Shown here in pieces: positions 30,166 through 42,935 of a DNA stretch of 43,076 bases. Position 1 is the stretch's first letter, and every line of letters begins with the position of its first letter. Position numbers and translations under genes: made by a program. The stretch is from Candidatus Aegiribacteria sp. (GTDB taxonomy: Bacteria; Fermentibacterota; Fermentibacteria; Fermentibacterales; JCC-6), in the NCBI GenBank assembly GCA_030613065.1, contig JAUWMQ010000008.1, positions 1-43,076 of the forward strand, given 5' to 3'. The notes below the pieces were generated by a model that searched no databases, was not told where the DNA came from, and saw nothing but the letters and a program-made list of their open reading frames with translations.

Positions 30166-30783
30166 GTGGATTGTATATGGAGGTTGAATTTGGGCATCAG
30201 CAACAGGGATAAACTTCTTCAGGCAGGGGTTGAACTTCTGTCCGAAAAGACATTCTCGCAGATATCCATGGATCAGGTCGCGGAATCATCCGGTGTTTCA
30301 AAACCGATGATCTACTATTACTTCAACAACAAAGAGGGGTACTACAAGGCCCTTGCGGGGCACCTTCTGAAGATTGCACGATCAGTAACAATGAAACTCT
30401 TCCAGCCCGAATTGAGCCTGAGGGAGAACCTGATTAATTACGTTCGCTTCCGGATTGAATACGTCCAGAATAACCAGGGTTTCTCAAGAGCCTTCATGTC
30501 AATGATCACGGACCCCAACATAGGTCTGCTAATCGAAGAAATGCAGGAAGAATTCAACATTATGCGCATGGAGTATATCGATCCGATGTTCGATAATGCC
30601 GTGAGTAAAGGTGAAATCCTGCCTGACACGAACAGGATAATGGTAATTATGATGATCAACTCAGTTCTTGTTTCTTTTACCATGAAGATCCTTAATGAAT
30701 TACCGTGCCATAATGAGATTAATCCGGAAGAAATTGTAGATATAATATTCAACGGAATATCAGTACGCGGAGAGGATAAATAA
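30166..30783 (+). CDS. TetR/AcrR family transcriptional regulator
   Basis: RDKLLQAGVELLSEKTFSQISMDQVAESSGVSKPMIYYYFNNKEGYYKAL. Confidence 0.92.
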   Translation: MDCIWRLNLGISNRDKLLQAGVELLSEKTFSQISMDQVAESSGVSKPMIYYYFNNKEGYYKALAGHLLKIARSVTMKLFQPELSLRENLINYVRFRIEYVQNNQGFSRAFMSMITDPNIGLLIEEMQEEFNIMRMEYIDPMFDNAVSKGEILPDTNRIMVIMMINSVLVSFTMKILNELPCHNEINPEEIVDIIFNGISVRGEDK

Positions 30784-30787
30784 TCAA

Positions 30788-32086
30788 ATGAAGTATTTGG
30801 CAGCGATAGCTCTGTTGATAAGCCTTAATGCGGAGGCAGTCTCCCTTGAAGAGGCTGTTGGAATAGCGCTTCAGAACAGGGGTGATGTACAGTCAGCCCT
30901 GATGTCTTACGAAAGCGCGGTATGGAAAAGCAGGAATGCCGATCTCTGGTTTCTGCCGAATGTGAACGGTCAGCTTGCTTTTTCAAAAAACTTTGATGTT
31001 CAGGAAATGACAATTCCAGGTATGGGTTCGATTCCAATGGGAACCGAATACTCATCAATTGCCGGAGTTTCAGTAACTGTTCCTCTCTTCGTGCCACAAG
31101 GGCCTGCGGGATCGCGCATGGCATCGAGGGCAGAGGAGCTTTCTCTGCAGCAGTCCAGGGCTGCTGAGATGGATGCGGTTGTACAGGTTGTTAGGGCTTT
31201 CTACGGTGTTCTTCTGGCGCAGGAAATGATGGATGTTTCAATTGAAGCAATTGATATCGCTGAAGCCGGTTACGAACTTGCGGCTCTAAAATATGATGCA
31301 GGTACAATTTCCCGATTTGAACTGCTTCAAAGCCGCGTTGCCTGGGAGAACAGGAAACCTGACCTGATCTCGGCTGAAAACGCCCTTGATAATGCCTTTG
31401 CCGGTTTTGCGGTAGCTCTCGGGCAGGATAACGATGCTCATTTCCAGATAGAGGGCAGTCTTGATGATAAACCCGGTTTCAAGATGCCCGAAACCCTTGA
31501 GGAAGCGCGTGAAAACATGTACCTTAACAATCCCGATCTACAGGCGGCTGAGTACATTGAACTTGTTGGTGATGCGGGAGTGGATATGGCCAGGGCTTCG
31601 TTCCTGCCTCAGCTGGTTTTCCAGACAGACCTTAATTACCTTGCGGCAAGAAATGATGCGCATTTTGAGATAGATGATTATGACAGGAATCTGGTGGCTT
31701 CAGTGGCTCTTCAGATTCCTCTTTTCAACGGCTTTTCCGATATTTCAGGCTACAATGCAGCCAGGGCCGAAAGGGTTTCATCAGCTGCTTCAGCTAGAAG
31801 TATCAGGCAGGTCACAGATCTTTCGCTGGTGTCAGCCTGGAATAATCTCCAGGCAGCCAGAGAGGGCGTCAATGCAACATCTTCAACTGTTGCACTGGCT
31901 TCTGAGGGGGCCTCTATCGCCAGCATCTCTTATGAAGCCGGCATGATAACACGTCTTGAAATGGATCAATCCTTTCTGGCTCTTACAACCGCCAGAACCA
32001 ATCACGCCCGGGCACAATACAACTTGCGAACCGCGGAAGCTGAGCTGATGAGAGCTTCAGGCTTAATGGAAGGATACATCAGATGA
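30788..32086 (+). CDS. TolC family outer membrane efflux protein
   Basis: Signal peptide; SLEEAVGIALQNRGDVQSALMSYE; OEP repeats. Confidence 0.9.
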   Translation: MKYLAAIALLISLNAEAVSLEEAVGIALQNRGDVQSALMSYESAVWKSRNADLWFLPNVNGQLAFSKNFDVQEMTIPGMGSIPMGTEYSSIAGVSVTVPLFVPQGPAGSRMASRAEELSLQQSRAAEMDAVVQVVRAFYGVLLAQEMMDVSIEAIDIAEAGYELAALKYDAGTISRFELLQSRVAWENRKPDLISAENALDNAFAGFAVALGQDNDAHFQIEGSLDDKPGFKMPETLEEARENMYLNNPDLQAAEYIELVGDAGVDMARASFLPQLVFQTDLNYLAARNDAHFEIDDYDRNLVASVALQIPLFNGFSDISGYNAARAERVSSAASARSIRQVTDLSLVSAWNNLQAAREGVNATSSTVALASEGASIASISYEAGMITRLEMDQSFLALTTARTNHARAQYNLRTAEAELMRASGLMEGYIR

Positions 32087-33162
32087 GAAATTACAGATTC
32101 GGTATACTGATAACGACAATTCTAACAGGTGTATTTCTGTCTATTGGCTGCGGTCCCGGCCAGGCAGATGAAGAGGAACCTCCAGTACGGGTATCCATTG
32201 AAGTTGTGGAACCCTTTGATATTTCAAGCATCGCTTATGCCAGCGTAAGGGTTGAAGGACTTGAAGAAGCTCTCATATATGCTCTTACACCTGGAAAAGT
32301 GGAGGAGGTGCTTGTTTCCGAGGGTGACAGTGTTGTCGCAGGACAGCAGCTTGTAAGACTGAATACCGATCAGCAGGCCAGCGCTGGAACAGCGAGTGCT
32401 GTGGCCGGAATCAGCGCCGCTCAGGCCAACGTTGACAACGCGTCAAGTAATTACAGAAGGATGCAGTCACTTCATGAAGCTGGAGGCGTCAGCGAGCAGC
32501 AGCTTGAAGGTGCTCTTGCATCTGTTCAAGCAGCTGAGGCCCAGCTGAGTCAGGCAAGAGCCGGCTATTCTCAGGCAAGGACCAATCGAGACAATTCATG
32601 GATAACGGCACCTTTTGATGGTGAGATTGGCAGAATATGGGCGCGAGAAGGCAATTCATCCGCCGGCTCTCCACTGATATCAATCTCCAACAACTCCGTA
32701 ATAGTAGCCAGAATACTTCTTCCGGAAGAGAATCTCCTCGACCTGAAGCCAGGTCTCCCGGCATTTATTACCATCAGCTCGCTGGATAATGAATCTTTCC
32801 CCGGGATGGTCACATCAGCATCATCAACAGTTGATCAGATCAGCGGACTGGTTCCCGTTGAGGTCAGGTTTGATGATACCGGCGGAAGACTCAGGCCCGG
32901 GATGGCTGGCAGGGTGGCCGTTCTTACTGAAACGATCGAGAACTCGATCGCTGTTCGTGAAAGTACTCTCAGGAGAACCCATTCAGGTTTTCAGGTTGTG
33001 GTTATTGAGAACGGTAAAGCTGTGATAAGGGACGTTCAGGTTGGTATTTTCAGTGAAGGAATGGTTCAGATAACAGAAGGGCTGAATTTCGGAGAATCTC
33101 TTGTTGTAGCAGGCCAGACAATGATTCAGGACGGATCCGATGTGGAAGTAGTGAGCCAATGA
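32083..33162 (+). CDS. RND efflux periplasmic adaptor (HlyD/MFP)
   Basis: Lipoprotein N-terminus; TPGKVEEVLVSEGDSVVAGQQLVRL; ITAPFDGEIGRIWAREGNSSAGSPLISI; ATGA overlaps. Confidence 0.92.
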   Translation: MRNYRFGILITTILTGVFLSIGCGPGQADEEEPPVRVSIEVVEPFDISSIAYASVRVEGLEEALIYALTPGKVEEVLVSEGDSVVAGQQLVRLNTDQQASAGTASAVAGISAAQANVDNASSNYRRMQSLHEAGGVSEQQLEGALASVQAAEAQLSQARAGYSQARTNRDNSWITAPFDGEIGRIWAREGNSSAGSPLISISNNSVIVARILLPEENLLDLKPGLPAFITISSLDNESFPGMVTSASSTVDQISGLVPVEVRFDDTGGRLRPGMAGRVAVLTETIENSIAVRESTLRRTHSGFQVVVIENGKAVIRDVQVGIFSEGMVQITEGLNFGESLVVAGQTMIQDGSDVEVVSQ

Positions 33163-36100
33163 GACTGCCGGAATTATCAGTTAAAAGACGTGTAGCTTTC
33201 CTGATGGTCTTCATTGCGATACTGGGTACGGGAATATTCGGTCTTACCCAGCTTGGTGTTGATATGTATCCCGATATGGAATTCCCGATGATAATGGTGA
33301 TGAGTACCCTGGAAGGCGCCGGACCCGAGGAAGTGGAGAATCTTGTTACTAATCCCCTTGAGCAGGCTCTTGCGAGGGTATCCAACGTCAAGAAAGTTTC
33401 ATCTACTTCGCGGGCGGGGATCAGTATTGTAACAGCCGAATTCAATTGGGGACATAGTCTCGATCAGGCTGAAACTGATGTCAGAAGGCAGCTCGATATG
33501 TTCGATGCGATGCTGCCCGAAGATGCCAGCGATCCTCTGGTATTCGCACTTGATCCAAGCATGCAGCCTGTCCTGTATGTTGGTTTCAGCAGCGAGATGC
33601 TTAACGATTTTGATCTCCGAACACTTATCATGGAGGAGATTGAACCGCTGTTCAGCAGGCTGGATGGTGTGGGATCGGCCGTAACAGCAGGTGGTCGCGA
33701 GAGACAGATAAATGTTGAAGTGAACCCCTCAGCCCTTATGGATGCGGGGATTACCATATCTCAGGTTGTTGGAGCCTTGAGTTCTGTCCGTAACAATACT
33801 CCGGCGGGAAGAATCGATGCCGGCGGGATGAACATGAGCATCAGGGTTGAATCCGCTTTCCACAGTATCGCTGAGATAGAACAACTTGTTGTAGGTATAA
33901 ATGCCGGATCTCCCGTTCTGCTCCGTGATGTGGCATCAGTCCAGGATGGTCAGGCGGATGAGCTGCAGTACGTCAGATTCAACGGACGGCCATCGGTATC
34001 GATGTATCTGAACAAGAGATCGGATGCTAATACCGTCAACGTGTGTGCAAGAATACGTGATCAACTCGATGAAATATCGGCTGACTACGGGAGTATTCTC
34101 ATACCGGTTGTTCTATTTGACCAGTCGGAATTCATAGAGCAGTCCATCAACAATCTGGGAACAACAGCCATTCAGGCATGCTTTCTGGCTTTTCTGGTGC
34201 TGCTTTTCTTCCTCAGATCATGGAAGAGCTCATCCATTGCTGGAATATCAATACCCATCTCCGTTTTTGTGACCTTTGCCGTAATGCACTTCACCGATGT
34301 GCAGCTGAACATGATATCTCTGGCTGGCCTTGCTCTGGCCATAGGTTTGCTTGTGGACAATGCTATCGTAGTGCTTGAGAACATCTTCAGACACAGGGAG
34401 AAGGGTGAGTCTCCGAGGGATTCAGCTGTCAACGGAGCGTTGGAAGTATCCAATGCGATAACAGCTTCGACGCTCACAACCCTTGCCGTCTTTATTCCCA
34501 TTCTTTTTGTTCCAGGCATAGCTGGTGAACTTTTCAAGGAAATGGTTCTTACGATCACATTCAGTCTCACCATATCTCTCTTTGTGGCACTGAGCCTTGT
34601 TCCGTTGATCGCTTCATGGACAAAGAACCTTGTGCCTGTATTCAAACCACGCAGCATTTCCGGCAGAATAGGCGGGGTGATCGATGCATTTGAAAAGAAA
34701 TACAACAGGCTGGTTTCCTGGGCCGTTAATCACAAAAAGGTCGTTCTGATCTCAACCGCGGCGGCTTTCATTCTGGCAATAGTGATGGTCGGCAGGCTTC
34801 CGTCCGATTTCTTTCCCGAATCCGATGATGGATTTATGATGATGGATGTGGAGGAGCCGATAGGTACCAGTCTCGAAACGACCGATGCAGCAGTAAGAGC
34901 GCTGGAGGATTCCATCAAGGCTATTGTTGCTCCCGAAGATCTGCTTGCGCTGTTCACCACCGTTGGAGAAGCCGAAGGTATAATGGCAATATTCGGTGGC
35001 AGCAGCTCAAATGCTGCCATGCTGAGGGTGAGATTAACGCCATCCAGTCAGCGAAGCACTACCATGTTCGAGTATCAGGACAGGATAGGGGAAGTGTTGA
35101 AAGACATGCCCGGAATTGAGTATTCAACGGAAGCAGGTATGTCACTTTTGTCATCCTCACCAATAGAGATCACGTTGTATGGCGACGATCTGGACCTGTT
35201 GTTCGAGAAGGCCGATGAGATAAAAGAAGCCATGTCGCAGATAGAGGGCGTCAGGGATGCCAGAACATCCATGCAGGAACTTATTCCTGAGTACTCTTTC
35301 ATTCCTGATCCTGTTAGGCTTTCTCTTCTGGGCATGACGCAATCCCAGCTGGCCATGGATGTCAGGTACGGTTTTCAGGGATCACGGGCCAGCATATATC
35401 GCGAAGGTGATGACGAGTACAATATTTTTGTCAGGTATCCCGAGAATCTGAGGGATTCCAGAGAGGACCTGGAATACGCATCTGTTCTGGGAAGACCTTT
35501 AATATCCATGGGTTCCCTTGATCAGAGGGTAGTATCGAATACGATTACAAGAAAGAACCAGGCAAGAATGGTTACAATTTCCTGTGATGTATCCGGAAGA
35601 TCTTTAGGTGAAGTGTCAGCGGATGTCGTTGCAATGATGAAGGAGATCGACACTAACGGTTTCAGATATGAAATGGGCGGCGAGATGAAGGATCAGATGG
35701 AAACCTTCATGTACCTTGGAATCGCTATCATGGTTGCCGCTGCTCTTGTCTATATGGTTATGGCCGGGCAGTTCGAATCATTCCTTGAACCCTTCATAAT
35801 AATCTTCACATTGCCACTTGCCTTCATTGGAGTAGTTCTGGGATTGTTCGTTACCTCAACATCACTGTCGGTCATGGCGATCATAGGAATGCTGATGCTT
35901 GCCGGAATAGTGGTTAACAATGGTATCGTAATGGTGGATTACGCAAATCAGCTGCGGAGATCAGGAATGGAGATAAAGACTGCGATTGTTGAAGCTTCCA
36001 CTACCAGAATGAGACCTATTATCATGACCGCTGCAACAACCGTACTGGCAATGTTCCCGCTTGCGCTTGGAATCGGTGAGGGGGCAGAGACATGGGCGCC

Positions 36101-36194
36101 GATGGCAGTAACGGTTATTGGTGGACTGTTCGTAGCCACTGTGCTGACGCTGGTTGTAGAACCCTGCATTTATGTAATATTCAACCGCAAATAG
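33159..36194 (+). CDS. RND efflux permease (AcrB/MexB family)
   Basis: MYPDMEFPMIMVMSTLEGAGPEEVENLVTNPLEQAL; GLLVDNAIVVLENIFRH; GIVVNNGIVMVDYANQLR. Confidence 0.96.
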   Translation: MRLPELSVKRRVAFLMVFIAILGTGIFGLTQLGVDMYPDMEFPMIMVMSTLEGAGPEEVENLVTNPLEQALARVSNVKKVSSTSRAGISIVTAEFNWGHSLDQAETDVRRQLDMFDAMLPEDASDPLVFALDPSMQPVLYVGFSSEMLNDFDLRTLIMEEIEPLFSRLDGVGSAVTAGGRERQINVEVNPSALMDAGITISQVVGALSSVRNNTPAGRIDAGGMNMSIRVESAFHSIAEIEQLVVGINAGSPVLLRDVASVQDGQADELQYVRFNGRPSVSMYLNKRSDANTVNVCARIRDQLDEISADYGSILIPVVLFDQSEFIEQSINNLGTTAIQACFLAFLVLLFFLRSWKSSSIAGISIPISVFVTFAVMHFTDVQLNMISLAGLALAIGLLVDNAIVVLENIFRHREKGESPRDSAVNGALEVSNAITASTLTTLAVFIPILFVPGIAGELFKEMVLTITFSLTISLFVALSLVPLIASWTKNLVPVFKPRSISGRIGGVIDAFEKKYNRLVSWAVNHKKVVLISTAAAFILAIVMVGRLPSDFFPESDDGFMMMDVEEPIGTSLETTDAAVRALEDSIKAIVAPEDLLALFTTVGEAEGIMAIFGGSSSNAAMLRVRLTPSSQRSTTMFEYQDRIGEVLKDMPGIEYSTEAGMSLLSSSPIEITLYGDDLDLLFEKADEIKEAMSQIEGVRDARTSMQELIPEYSFIPDPVRLSLLGMTQSQLAMDVRYGFQGSRASIYREGDDEYNIFVRYPENLRDSREDLEYASVLGRPLISMGSLDQRVVSNTITRKNQARMVTISCDVSGRSLGEVSADVVAMMKEIDTNGFRYEMGGEMKDQMETFMYLGIAIMVAAALVYMVMAGQFESFLEPFIIIFTLPLAFIGVVLGLFVTSTSLSVMAIIGMLMLAGIVVNNGIVMVDYANQLRRSGMEIKTAIVEASTTRMRPIIMTAATTVLAMFPLALGIGEGAETWAPMAVTVIGGLFVATVLTLVVEPCIYVIFNRK

Positions 36195-36676: not shown

Positions 36677-38692
36677 ATGGATCCCGTTGTAATCGTTCTG
36701 TATGTGTCACACTCAATCACTGTGAGAAACGCCGCTCTGTTCATAAAGAGCATCCGAAGATTCGGTGGGTACATGAAGAATACGCCGATTCTGGTCATGA
36801 ACGATCAGGCGGCAAAGCTTGATCTGTCCCTGCTTGATCTCACCGGAGTGACAGTGTATGACATTGAGATAAATCCGGTTCACAGACACTTCCTGTTTTC
36901 AAAGAAGGTGCACGCATGCGCCACTGCTGAAAGGCTGCTTGAGGGAAAAGCAGAAATGCTTTTGTATTTCGATACGGAGATGCTGGCATTTTCGGATTTC
37001 AGCCCTATTCTGCTGAAGAAAGATTTTGATGCTTCACTGCGCCCTGTGATGCTGCTCAACACAGTCGGACAGAGTCCTGATAAAGCGCTGGACGGCTACT
37101 GGAAAAGAATATATCAGGAATCGGGGATTGATGAATCGACCGTTCCTGTGCTTCGCGCATATGTGGATGAACAGGATATGCGGTTTTACATCAATTGCGA
37201 GGTTATGGCAATACGACCCGAGCTTGGGATACTAAGGGAGTGGCGGAAAGCATTCCTGAAAATAATAGACGACAAAGCCTTTACAGAAAGCTTCTGCAGT
37301 GAGCAACTTCACTATATTTTCCTGCATCAGGCGGTGCTGAGTGCAGTGATCCTGTCTAAAACAGAGCCATCGCGTATCCAGTGGATACCGGACAGTACAG
37401 TCTATTCAGTACTGCTCCATGAACAGATGCCAAAGCATAAAAAAGTGTCCGACGCGGATGCCATTCCGATAATCGGATATGATCTTCAGTTCTCGGGGGA
37501 TCCGGCAATGATACTGACTTTCACCGTCAACGAACCCCATCGCACATGGGTCATTGATAATTACTGCGGGTTCCTTCAGGAATCACCGAAAATTTACCGC
37601 GAAGAAGGCGACTGCAACACTGTGGTTGTTCTCACGGAGAAAGGTTACATACTTGTTGATCCTTCACGGCCGCAGGGCATGGATTCCTGGCTTGCGCTGA
37701 AATTCAGACACATGACACCTGAAGCGGTGCTTTTCACACATGCGCATCAGGACCACTGGAACGGCCTGGCTTACTGGAATATTCCGGAAAAAACACCGAT
37801 GATCATCCAGCGCAACTGGATGGAAACTGTTGAATATCTGGAAAGATTTGAAGCATTTCAGGAACGCAGGAACAGAGCATTCACTGCTGGGAAATGGATG
37901 CCTCAAAAGCAACTTAAAATGATCACGCCGACCGAGGTTTTTCCGGATGAAACAAGCATGACTCTGTCTGGTCTGGAAGTTCGTATGTTGCACACACCTG
38001 CGGAAACCACGGATACCTCGGTGATCTGGTTTCCCGGACTGAAGCTGGCTTGCACCGGTGATACGGTATCTTCCGGATTTCCAATGCTGGGTACGCCCAG
38101 GGGGTCAATGCCGCGATTTGCAGATAACTACATCCGTGCTATTGATATCCTGCTCTCATTGAATCTGGAGCTTTGCATTGCAGGGCATGGCGAGCCGATC
38201 AGGGAAAATACCGCAATTACATCATGCCTGAAAAACCGTCGGGATGCCGTGGAATATGTTAACAATGCGGTAATACGGGGAATAAACAATGGGATAAGCG
38301 TGCATGAGCTTGTTTCTGAAATATCTCTGCCGATGGAATTGCAGTTGCCTGAAACCTTCAGCAGAATAGCCTGGTCTGTACGGGGACTTTATCAAAACTA
38401 TACCGGCTGGTACGACGGAAACATAACAAGCCTTCTGGATACCCCGATATCGTCTGTGTTCACCGACATTGTAAAGACATGGGGCGCCGGGACACTGATA
38501 ACTCTGGCTGAGGAAAAGCTGTCTGAAAACGATGCGCAGAGTGCGCTGCACATAACCGACCTTCTGCTGAGGGCAGCGCCCCATGATCAAAGAATATCAG
38601 AAATCCGCAGGAGAGCTTGCGAAATTCTTTTTAAAGGATGTCGGAACTGGGGAGAATCGAATCTTATCAAGGACGAACTGCTCAGATACTGA
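36677..38692 (+). CDS. GT-A-like N-terminus fused to alkyl-sulfatase-type metallo-beta-lactamase
   Basis: N-terminus AEMLLYFDTEMLAF / FYINCEVMAIRPELGILREW / HQAVLSAVI; MBL FTHAHQDHWNGL, TGDTVSSG, AGHGEPI; VRGLYQNYTGWYDGN. Confidence 0.75.
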   Translation: MDPVVIVLYVSHSITVRNAALFIKSIRRFGGYMKNTPILVMNDQAAKLDLSLLDLTGVTVYDIEINPVHRHFLFSKKVHACATAERLLEGKAEMLLYFDTEMLAFSDFSPILLKKDFDASLRPVMLLNTVGQSPDKALDGYWKRIYQESGIDESTVPVLRAYVDEQDMRFYINCEVMAIRPELGILREWRKAFLKIIDDKAFTESFCSEQLHYIFLHQAVLSAVILSKTEPSRIQWIPDSTVYSVLLHEQMPKHKKVSDADAIPIIGYDLQFSGDPAMILTFTVNEPHRTWVIDNYCGFLQESPKIYREEGDCNTVVVLTEKGYILVDPSRPQGMDSWLALKFRHMTPEAVLFTHAHQDHWNGLAYWNIPEKTPMIIQRNWMETVEYLERFEAFQERRNRAFTAGKWMPQKQLKMITPTEVFPDETSMTLSGLEVRMLHTPAETTDTSVIWFPGLKLACTGDTVSSGFPMLGTPRGSMPRFADNYIRAIDILLSLNLELCIAGHGEPIRENTAITSCLKNRRDAVEYVNNAVIRGINNGISVHELVSEISLPMELQLPETFSRIAWSVRGLYQNYTGWYDGNITSLLDTPISSVFTDIVKTWGAGTLITLAEEKLSENDAQSALHITDLLLRAAPHDQRISEIRRRACEILFKGCRNWGESNLIKDELLRY

Positions 38693-39070: not shown

Positions 39071-41029
39071 TTATCTCAGGATAGTGAAGCGGAGAGTGGA
39101 GGAAGTTCCTGCTGTGCTGGTGGCAAGGGTATAGACTCCGACTGGAAGATCTTTCAGATTGATGCCGGTTGAGATATCATTTATCATTCCCTCTGATACC
39201 CTGCGTCCGGTGATGTCGAAAATGTTGTAAGAGGTCCCGGGGGAGGCGTTGATAAGATTTACTGTTTCAGCCGCAGGGTTCGGATGAACCTGTAATGGGC
39301 TCTGCTCTTCCTGGGAAGTCCCCTGAGAAGCATCCTCTATTTCCAGAAGGTAAACATCATAATCTCCGTCATCTGTCTCTCTCTGGCCTGCAATCATGTA
39401 TGAGCCTGTTCCAGTTGGAGTAATTGCAGTACCCCATTCATCTGTTGATTCCTGTCCAAATTCCTCCGTCCATACCTCTTCACCATTCTCGTTCAGCTTT
39501 ACCACAAAGAGATTATTGTCGCAGGAGTACCTGTCTTTCGTCGCGCCCACGATCAGGAAACCACCGTCTGGGGTCTCAATGATATCGTTCGAATAATCAT
39601 AGAAAGTGTTGCCGTGGAATGTTTCTGTAATCTTCTGGCCATTTCCGTCTGTGAGTATGAAATACATGCCGCAGTTGTCGGGATCATTGGAATCTCCGGT
39701 AATCGCTATGTTGCCGTCTGAGGTTTCAACAGCTGCATTTGCACGGTCATAACCTCCTTCGCCGCCCTGAGCTCCGTAGTAATATTCCCAGATGATGTTT
39801 CCATCCATGTCTGTTAATATTGAATAGGCATCACAATTAGCTGTAAATGATCCGGTAGAACCGGTTATCAGAATGTTTCCGTCTGATGTAATCTGAACAT
39901 GGTCTGCCGTTTCGGGTCCCGGGCCACCGTATCTCTTCTCCCAGAGAATATTGCCTGAGTTGTCCGCCATTATCATAAGAACATCGCTTTCTCCTGCAGT
40001 ATTTTCAGTGGTGTAGCCGCAAAGTAGAATGTTGCCTGCAGAAGTTTCAGTAACCGACATCGCGATATCAAGGCTGTCACCGCCGAATGTTGTTTCCAGG
40101 ATAATGATGCCACCAGTATTTGTTCTTACAAGGTAGAAATCCTCATTGCCGGCTGATGTGCTGTAACCGCAGGCAATGTAGTCTCCATTTGAAGCTTCAA
40201 TTACAGAGTTTCCATACTCAAATCCTTCTGAACCGAAGGACTTTATCCAGATTGTATTCCCCAGCGAGTCTATTTTTTGAAGAAGGAGATCGCTTTTGCA
40301 TCCTGGATTACTGAAGTCGTAACCGGTCAGGATGAAGCAGTTATCAGCAGTCATAGTTACATCCCGCGCTCCCTGGGAGAAGTCTCCGGCCCGGCAATTT
40401 GAACGGGAGGTTGTTCCGGCTAATGCAGCTGCTGAGATTACGGCTTGACAGCTCTCCCGCTGGTAGTACTGCCCTCTGGTGGTGGTGATGATGTTCTGGT
40501 CAATGACAGGAAGTAGACCCCATCCAATGTAATTTGCCCCTGCTGCTTCATAGATCACCACATAACTGCTGTCAGGTCCGCTGCGGCCCTGAATTGTTAC
40601 CCCCGAGAGAACATCTGCTGCGGCCAGTACCAGAGGACCGGCGCATGTTGCCCAGACAGGTATGGAACTGGTAGCTGCTTCTGATATCAGGGAGATTGCC
40701 TCGGGGCTTGTTATCAGATCGTTATAGGGCTCTGTTACGCCCTGCCATCTGGAAGGCATGACGGCAACTGCATCAAACATGCCAATGTCCTGAATTTCGC
40801 TTATCAGAGTGTCCACCGTCAGAATTGGAAGACCTGAGTTGCACGGGGTAACAGTTTCGTTGATTCCGGCAGTGGTTGTTATGAATCCCATTTCCTGAAA
40901 ATGGTCGATGTTGAAATTGTAATTGGCACCGTAGAGATGCGGGACAAGAAGAAGGATATGCTGATCTTCTGCTTCTGCGAGGGAAAAGAAAAGAAGAAGG
41001 CCACAGATAAGAGTTAGGTACTTTTTCAT
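39071..41029 (-). CDS. Secreted DJ-1/PfpI-like domain + propeller-like repeats + Por-type C-terminal sorting domain
   Basis: Signal peptide MKKYLTLICGLLLFFSLAEA; IPVWATCAGPLVLAAADVLSGVTI; repeated GNILITGSTGSFTANCDAYSILTDMDGNIIWEYYYG-type units; HPNPAAETVNL...DITGRRV...LPVGVYTL. Confidence 0.75.
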   Translation of the reverse strand: MKKYLTLICGLLLFFSLAEAEDQHILLLVPHLYGANYNFNIDHFQEMGFITTTAGINETVTPCNSGLPILTVDTLISEIQDIGMFDAVAVMPSRWQGVTEPYNDLITSPEAISLISEAATSSIPVWATCAGPLVLAAADVLSGVTIQGRSGPDSSYVVIYEAAGANYIGWGLLPVIDQNIITTTRGQYYQRESCQAVISAAALAGTTSRSNCRAGDFSQGARDVTMTADNCFILTGYDFSNPGCKSDLLLQKIDSLGNTIWIKSFGSEGFEYGNSVIEASNGDYIACGYSTSAGNEDFYLVRTNTGGIIILETTFGGDSLDIAMSVTETSAGNILLCGYTTENTAGESDVLMIMADNSGNILWEKRYGGPGPETADHVQITSDGNILITGSTGSFTANCDAYSILTDMDGNIIWEYYYGAQGGEGGYDRANAAVETSDGNIAITGDSNDPDNCGMYFILTDGNGQKITETFHGNTFYDYSNDIIETPDGGFLIVGATKDRYSCDNNLFVVKLNENGEEVWTEEFGQESTDEWGTAITPTGTGSYMIAGQRETDDGDYDVYLLEIEDASQGTSQEEQSPLQVHPNPAAETVNLINASPGTSYNIFDITGRRVSEGMINDISTGINLKDLPVGVYTLATSTAGTSSTLRFTILR

Positions 41030-41220
41030 TTTGCTCCTTTCATCAGGGCAGAAGTATAATATATCAAAATGATACATCAGTCAATCTTTGTCCGATTTCA
41101 ACTCGTGAATCTCTCTCGGTGAATATCCAGAAAGCCATGAAATTAAATGATATAAGTATTTCAGGGAAGGGAGTAATTGTAACTGATTCGAGTGGGTTGT
41201 TTCAGCAACCTATTGGATCA

Positions 41221-41811
41221 TCAGTCTTTTTTGATGTGTATCTCGTCTTTTCGGGGGCGGTTATCCAGCCTTTGAAGGCAGGACATGCTCCATTCTATCA
41301 TCATTCTCGTGTATCGATACCAGAAGTCCATTGTCATTCTTCTGGTTTCAAGCTGAAGAGACGGTTCCAGCCCGTCAATATGCTGAAGACCTTCATAGAG
41401 TTCAGGCAGAAGGTCTTTCTGGTGATCAAGGTGTGCTCTGAGCAACTTTTCAAGGGCATCTTTCCCCATTGGATACCCGAAACGAAGCTTTAGAAGTAGT
41501 TCGATCTTTACCGGGCGCTGTTCCGCAGGAAGTTTCAGCCAGTGTCCGACCAGCTCGCGTCCCTTATCTGTAAGCCCATAAGCGATTCGTTTGCGGCCGG
41601 TTTTTTCGGAGAGTGTTTTAGTGGTAAGGCCAAGTTGAGTCAGATGACTCAGGTTGGGGTAGATGCTTCCGAAAGAATCGCGCCAGAAGACCATTTCCCT
41701 TGAATCAATCAGTTTTTTTATCTCATAACCGGTCATCGGTCTTTCACTGAGAATGGCCATAAGAGCCAGAGCGGATACTCTCAGCTCTGGTGCTGTATTG
41801 ATGTTTGTCAT
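41221..41811 (-). CDS. PadR family transcriptional regulator
   Basis: ALALMAILSERPMTGYEIKKLI...SFGSIYPNLSHLTQLGLTTKT...RIAYGLTDKGRELVGHWL. Confidence 0.9.
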   Translation of the reverse strand: MTNINTAPELRVSALALMAILSERPMTGYEIKKLIDSREMVFWRDSFGSIYPNLSHLTQLGLTTKTLSEKTGRKRIAYGLTDKGRELVGHWLKLPAEQRPVKIELLLKLRFGYPMGKDALEKLLRAHLDHQKDLLPELYEGLQHIDGLEPSLQLETRRMTMDFWYRYTRMMIEWSMSCLQRLDNRPRKDEIHIKKD

Positions 41812-42489
41812 TCAATAGACCCCGGGAGAAGGATTGCGAATGAGCATCTGTCTCCGCCGGAGCATACAGTATCAAGTATTTCCACACTGACAGGTCTTTC
41901 AAGAATAGTTTCCCATATCCACCGATAGAATCCGGCACCGCAATGGCAGTACTCGACCGGAATCAGAACATTCGCAGCCACAGCACTACTGACTTGTGAA
42001 CAATGGCAGTAAAGTTCTCTCTGCCTTCCATGATCGCTCTCACTCATGTATTGTCTCAGGTTTCCGCTTTTCGGGATCTTTGTGACAAGAATCCGGTTGC
42101 CTTGCCTTTTTCCGGCAACACCCCATCCTTGATCCAGAATCCAGTCAACGATCTCCTGTTCAAAGAGCATACCTTCCCGAAGAGAATCCTCAAGTTGCAA
42201 ACTGAGTTCAGAGATGGCATCATCAATACTTCCATTTTTCAGGTAGGCTTTTCTTGCCTGAAAAAGCTTGCCCGTTGGGTATCGGCAGGCGCAGCTGGAA
42301 AGGATCTCAGCTGTCTGAGCAGAAGTCAGATGTATTTCCATTCGCTTGAGTACTTCACGAATCCACGAGGCCTCTTCACCGGTCTCAGAAGATTCAAACC
42401 TATCCATATCCGACAATATCACCCCAAGGATATCTTTCCCACAAACCCTCTCAAGATTGCAAGAGAGCTTGTCTCTCCAGTTGTTGTTC
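41808..42489 (-). CDS. Cys-rich protein with V4R/DUF6144-like C-terminus
   Basis: SSCACRYPTGKL, YCHCSQV, EYCHCGAGFYRWIWETILERPVSVEILDTVCSGGDRCSFAILLP; ATGA overlap with padR. Confidence 0.6.
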
Positions 42490-42599
42490 ATCTGGGCCTC
42501 CTTCCGGGTACCTGCTTCAGCGAATACCTGCAAATCAGTTGGCTGAACTGGTTTCCTCACCAGAGTCTTTAATTGATATCGAAGTGGGTAAACAATAAC

Positions 42600-42935
42600 C
42601 CTGGTTAACTGGCAGGTCAAAAGCCTCTGAATCATCGGCCTTTGAACAGCCTTCCATCGGGACTGCAAGACCGGCAAAGATGAATATCATTCCTGCGATT
42701 GCACTCCACTCCAGGCTTTCTCCAAGCACCAGCACACCGAGGAGAACTGCGTTAAGTGGAATAAGAAAAGTAACCAGCAGAAGATTTGTAGGACCTGTGA
42801 GAACCAGAGTCTGAAAGTAGAAGACATAAGTCAGTACTGAGGAGGGTTAATCCTGTTAAAGCTGCGAGTGTCACACCTCCGGGCTGGAGTGAGAAAGGAT
42901 CCTCAAGCAGGAAGACGAATGGGCTGCTTTGCGAG
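42600..42935 (-). pseudogene. EamA/DMT transporter C-terminal remnant with frameshift
   Basis: SPFVFLLEDPFSLQPGGVTLAALTGLTLL continues in another frame as VLTYVFYFQTLVLTGPTNLLLVTFLIPLNAVLLGVLVLGESLEWSAIAGMIFIFAGLAV. Confidence 0.7.

Follow-up and report, generated by a model that had tools for sequence, protein, structure and literature searches.

The gene at 39071-41029 of the window, by which we mean the whole 43,076-nucleotide stretch of Candidatus Aegiribacteria DNA analyzed here, encodes a predicted surface protein in which a DJ-1/PfpI-like domain with an invariant nucleophile-elbow cysteine precedes a seven-bladed beta-propeller and a type IX secretion (T9SS) sorting tail. We give even chances to the reading, drawn from sequence comparison and structure models, that this is a surface module in which a reactive or redox-active cysteine on the DJ-1-like domain, served by partner groups other than those of DJ-1, works with the propeller. 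The gene is real. Its frame is open over exactly the positions given in the initial annotation, whose description of the protein proved right in every part, with Pfam and NCBIfam in agreement; only the strand, which is minus, had been left unstated. From the N-terminus, the order is signal peptide, DJ-1/PfpI domain, propeller and T9SS tail, with the following features:

39071..41029, minus strand: whole coding sequence, 652 amino acids plus stop, with ATG at 41029 and an AAAGGAG ribosome-binding site just 5' of it
41056..41084, minus strand: promoter-like site TTGACT-17-TATTAT, a consensus match only, at 10 of 12 positions
40970..41029, minus strand: predicted signal peptide, residues 1-20, with putative cleavage after AEA (hydrophobic core score 2.77, AxA-like site)
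40409..40966, minus strand: DJ-1/PfpI-like domain, residues 22-207, from PF01965, AlphaFold2 (AF2) and Foldseek
40922..40924, minus strand: YGxN-motif Asn36, which falls on the DJ-1 Glu18 position or one residue away, Asn in 26 of 27 sequences
40841..40843, minus strand: Cys63, second invariant cysteine (27 of 27), at the DJ-1 Cys46 position
40643..40645, minus strand: Cys129, nucleophile-elbow cysteine equivalent to DJ-1 Cys106 (27 of 27)
39338..40375, minus strand: seven-bladed beta-propeller, about residues 219-564, from AF2 strands, Foldseek and the delta-60, DUF5122 and ASST models
39089..39289, minus strand: Por-type (T9SS type A) C-terminal sorting domain, residues 581-647, from PF18962 and TIGR04183

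The assignment of the N-terminal domain rests on both profile and fold. The Pfam DJ-1_PfpI model matched residues 38-184 (E 1.5e-8) with 35.1 bits against a gathering score of 26.6, and the segment that had been read as a DJ-1/PfpI nucleophile elbow, VWATCAGPLVLAAADVLSG, lies at residues 125-143 and contains Cys129. The AF2 model of this domain, built from 27 aligned sequences, reached a pLDDT of 94.5 and a pTM of 0.91, and its top solved match in Foldseek was the E17N mutant of Staphylococcus aureus SAV1875 (E 2.3e-13, TM 0.82), with PfpI of Pyrococcus and Thermococcus and human DJ-1 among the further matches; across SAV1875, PfpI and DJ-1, TM was about 0.75-0.83. By both measures, the predicted fold is a flavodoxin-like alpha/beta sandwich of the class-I-GATase/DJ-1 kind, as the initial annotation had supposed. 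PF01965 was matched by all 27 family domains at E<=1 (best 1.5e-19), and a profile of the family retrieved AtDJ-1D at 6e-23. A chance match of the elbow motif was rejected, given the curated Pfam cut-off passed, the high-confidence model and the 26 intact relatives. Fold and profile thus place the domain in the DJ-1/PfpI superfamily, but it fits the catalytic definition of none of the known types.

The propeller and the two export signals were likewise recovered. In the full-length AF2 model (pLDDT 86.4, pTM 0.80), 27 propeller strands fall into seven repeats, so that the seven repeats counted by eye correspond to seven blades, and a beta-rich tail follows. Among propeller-repeat models in Pfam, ASST matched at 1.3e-6 and DUF5122 at 2.8e-5, the latter below its cut-off; the NCBIfam delta-60 repeats matched at 4e-14, below the whole-protein cut-off. 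The best Foldseek match of the propeller was the propeller of CylK (E 2.9e-20), which was also its top PDB match by sequence (phmmer, E 3.7e-11). At the N-terminus, inspection bore out the signal peptide MKKYLTLICGLLLFFSLAEA, and at the C-terminus the Por-type domain scored above both curated cut-offs (Por_Secre_tail, PF18962, E 6.3e-9; TIGR04183, 2.6e-9). A protein with the T9SS core domain SprA_N is encoded in the same genome, which provides a plausible secretion machine for the sorting tail; with signal peptide, sorting domain and a T9SS protein in the genome, the product is predicted to be secreted as type A cargo.

When 146 genomes were searched, relatives turned up in a single genome of the same genus and in two distant genomes, one of them with four copies; a contig scan with the seed alignment yielded 27 relatives (L019-L045) together with four canonical DJ-1 proteins (L046-L049). 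The window sequence was aligned with the 26 intact relatives, leaving out L045 (5770-6550), a Chloroflexi copy broken by stops that lies amid several lipoprotein genes with propeller-type repeats. By record title, the bacterial members come from Aegiribacteria, Zixibacteria, Bacteroidales, Neomarinimicrobiota, Cloacimonadota, a Gemmatimonadota bin, CSSED10-310, WOR-3 and Chloroflexi, and the archaeal ones from Thermoplasmatales and the Asgard bins Heimdallarchaeota and Thorarchaeota; nearly all are metagenome bins, so some may be assigned to the wrong organism through misbinning. The same architecture appears in independent assemblies, and an assembly chimera or a lone oddity was rejected on this ground. 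In a tree, the family forms one side of a fully supported branch (100/100) against the four canonical proteins, a small canonical sample. Distribution is patchy: in its own phylum, 2 of 42 genomes carry a member, and the closest relative of the window protein is 52-55% identical across the domain. Transfer between phyla is plausible, not proven by the tree. Spread via plasmids or phages was set aside, as tblastn against plasmid and phage collections gave no match in either. A distant exported relative, L062 (G151:C79; 710-aa minus-strand frame, E 5e-19), has both cysteines in similar places and appears fused to a putative alpha/beta-hydrolase-like region. We found no paper in the open-licence literature on an exported DJ-1 plus propeller family, which is apparently undescribed.

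Export signals are seen across the family. Every family member has a hydrophobic N-terminal stretch, and lipobox-like sites occur in L033, L040, L042, L043 and L044, signal peptides and lipoboxes being called by simple criteria rather than by a trained predictor. Many fused relatives end in a Por-type tail, and the archaeal L037 and L041 have a hydrophobic segment at the C-terminal end, as seen in the sequence. Export of DJ-1/PfpI proteins occurs without a propeller as well: in L061 (G146:C36), a 218-aa minus-strand frame, an exported PfpI keeps both the canonical Glu and a CHGP motif. The initial annotation had called a surface-exported DJ-1-like enzyme unusual. Export and the sorting domain stood, and the architecture is a recurring family rather than a single oddity, with exported canonical PfpI existing alongside it; an enzyme in the usual sense was not supported, with E15, E18, G74 and P158 absent in all 27 sequences.

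In five relatives (L020, L025, L028, L035 and L036), the DJ-1-like domain is encoded on its own as an exported protein, and the gene that follows specifies a propeller protein that likewise has a signal peptide. The split genes overlap by 4 nt (ATGA/GTGA) in L020, L028, L035 and L036 and lie about 10 bases apart in L025. The sorting tail is borne by the propeller partner in L020, L035 and L036, with a score just under the curated cut-off in L035. In L038 the domain is fused instead to FG-GAP repeats, which form propellers too. Because the two parts are fused in some species and encoded by coupled genes in others, their arrangement indicates that the DJ-1-like domain and the propeller work jointly. 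Across 21 loci, distances between domains correlated with distances between propellers (Mantel r 0.48; 1 in 20,000 permutations as high), which, with shared ancestry contributing, supports co-inheritance over contact. Three Asgard members have no propeller within the protein or in the adjoining available DNA, one contig ending there.

Beyond the propeller gene, comparison of the family loci revealed no neighborhood shared across phyla. Directly upstream of the window gene lies:

41221..41811, minus strand: PadR-family regulator (PF03551, E 2.6e-14)

L019, the only close relative, has the same gene order, with a neighbor 69% identical to this one. Other neighbors are clade-local, namely PadR with DUF6144 in Aegiribacteria, TetR in two Cloacimonadota and a LytTR pair in Bacteroidota/Marinimicrobia, and with members scattered so thinly (in 2 of 42 genomes for the phylum), distribution offers no clue to a pathway. 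The DUF6144 gene (41808-42677, minus strand) overlaps the PadR gene, a pair that is also conserved in L019. In L033, a distantly similar DUF6144-like gene (25% identity) is located close to the family member. On the other side, 36677-38692 (plus strand) encodes a 671-aa protein in which a stretch of about 300 residues that no Pfam model matched precedes a metallo-beta-lactamase domain and an alkyl-sulfatase dimerisation domain; in L019, too, a fragment of a similar gene follows the DJ-1 gene. Further away, a run of genes for a TetR regulator, an outer-membrane efflux protein, an HlyD-type adaptor and an AcrB-family pump (30166-36194, plus strand) is an ordinary efflux operon. PADLOC gave no match, and a role as an anti-phage defence component was discarded on that basis.

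We then compared the active-site positions in the window sequence and the 26 intact relatives by alignment to human DJ-1. The elbow cysteine, whose conservation the initial annotation had left to be checked, is present in all 27 sequences, and its surroundings are strongly conserved across the family (C-A/S-G-V/P-R-V-L-A-A-A). Cys63 is equally invariant, its position being occupied by G, C, A and G in the four canonical relatives. Asn36 is nearly invariant while neighboring residues vary; it aligns one residue before Glu18 in two sequence alignments and, judged by spacing to the helix end, would occupy the place of Glu18. The scan patterns contained neither Cys63 nor Asn36, and the cysteine pattern played no part in reaching 16 of the 27 sequences, of which seven were seeds and nine were loci that matched only the other pattern, so this conservation is more than a search artefact. 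Equivalents of the structural Asp149 and Thr154 of DJ-1 are present. The other catalytic residues of DJ-1 are lost: the Glu15 position is Gly in 27 of 27, no Glu stands at or next to the Glu18 position in any of them, the G74 position is never Gly (Pro in 17, Ser in 8; n=27), G75 is Gly in 6 of 27, P158 is never Pro (n=27), and R28 is kept in two of the 27. The residue after the elbow cysteine is A, S, T, K, R or P, with no His (n=27). In DJ-1, E15, E18, G74 and P158 are essential, and E15A, E18A, E18Q and G74S abolish cPGA hydrolysis (PMC12135873). The Glu near the cysteine, Glu18 in DJ-1, has been called absolutely conserved across the superfamily, and the YhbO/Hsp triad includes a His directly after the cysteine (PMC5691139). 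With the other DJ-1 catalytic residues lost, a classical DJ-1 enzyme is unlikely.

We propose that the gene product is a cell-surface protein of a distinct exported DJ-1/PfpI subfamily, in which the DJ-1-like domain would sit on its own propeller, or on a separately encoded one in other species, the pair forming one functional unit outside the cytoplasm. A small molecule or peptide outside the cell would react with the cysteine or modify it reversibly, while the propeller would bind a ligand and the tail would anchor the protein at the surface. The glyoxalase/cPGA-hydrolase mechanism of DJ-1 would not be used, given that E15, E18, G74 and P158 are all missing and that few members retain R28; catalytic or binding groups would probably come from elsewhere, plausibly from the propeller interface, by analogy with CylK. 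A bolder version, which we hold to be possible and regard with some doubt, is an undescribed extracellular two-part enzyme of bacteria and archaea. In it, a DJ-1 domain re-tooled to have Cys and Asn but neither Glu nor Gly-Gly would make a new cysteine-dependent active site together with a seven-bladed propeller, the two being one protein or a translationally coupled pair. Equally, the disappearance of Glu18, Pro158 and the Gly-Gly loop could reflect a loss of catalysis. The main rival, to which we assign a minor though substantial share of likelihood, is a non-catalytic scaffold, a degenerate pseudoenzyme serving binding or structure whose exported fold would be stabilised by a Cys63-Cys129 disulfide or a metal site. 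The joint invariance of the two cysteines (27 of 27) is consistent with this, Cys63 not being conserved in the four canonical relatives, as are the missing canonical residues and the adhesive or structural nature of several partner domains in relatives (PKD, laminin-G, FG-GAP, dockerin). However, such a disulfide would use a strained elbow cysteine, which is unusual, and a scaffold accounts poorly for the strong conservation around that cysteine and for a nearly invariant Asn36 amid varying neighbors.

Two further explanations are improbable. Clear superfamily membership, a conserved nucleophile and the existence of exported canonical PfpI proteins such as L061 would suit a classical exported glyoxalase III, deglycase or peptidase, acting at the cell surface in carbonyl detoxification or peptide cleavage; the residue counts argue against it, since the positions whose substitution abolishes cPGA hydrolysis (PMC12135873) are altered throughout the family and the YhbO/Hsp triad (PMC5691139) is missing its His. 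A redox or stress sensor, in which the cysteine would detect extracellular oxidants or sulfide species and the propeller would pass the signal on or retain a partner, is similarly hard to favor. It would fit with Cys106 of DJ-1 being an oxidation sensor whose oxidation shifts with changes at Glu18, E18N being reported to enhance it (reviewed in PMC8270312), with SAV1875-E17N as the closest solved match, and with the regulators that adjoin several loci (PadR, TetR, TrmB, LytTR). The proteins have no signalling domain, however, and the regulator types vary by clade, so that the association may be chance.

Work on DJ-1 proteins, the group of the Parkinson protein, has treated them as stress proteins and enzymes of the cytoplasm that need the Cys, the Glu and the Gly-Gly loop to be active. 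An exported family that keeps the cysteine and discards the rest offers an independent test of what the cysteine alone can do, and the coexistence of split pairs and fused proteins makes the partner interaction directly testable. For Asgard archaea and uncultured phyla, the family also provides a way into their surface proteins that is tied to function.

Compared with known systems, the window domain shares its fold, elbow cysteine and Asp149/Thr154 equivalents with SAV1875, PH1704 PfpI and human DJ-1 (PF01965). Unlike YhbO/PfpI- and DJ-1-type proteins, the window family is exported, has lost E15, E18, G74 and P158, mostly replaces R28 and has no His after the cysteine, and it adds an invariant Cys63, a YGxN motif and a fused or co-encoded propeller. 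CylK (7ron/7fh6), a cyanobacterial Friedel-Crafts alkylating enzyme, has the same repeat-type seven-bladed propeller placed C-terminal to another domain, but that N-terminal domain is a Ca2+-binding beta-roll, unrelated in fold to that of the window protein and with no DJ-1 domain. Its active site lies between the two parts, with Arg105 contributed by one and Tyr473 by the other (PMC8916777). CylK could thus serve as a precedent for a possible working mode, not as evidence for the window protein. T9SS cargo proteins with propellers and a Por_Secre_tail share with it the sorting tail, surface export and repeat propeller, but the matches of those encoded in its own genome are confined to the propeller and do not extend into the DJ-1 domain of the query. 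The DJ-1 fusions in Ava_4496 and in catalases have other partner domains and are not known to carry a propeller or a T9SS tail. In Ava_4496 (3fse), which combines DJ-1 with a ferritin-like domain, and in large catalases, which carry DJ-1-like C-terminal domain fusions (PMC9137513), the DJ-1-like domain is one module of a larger protein, as it is in the window protein.
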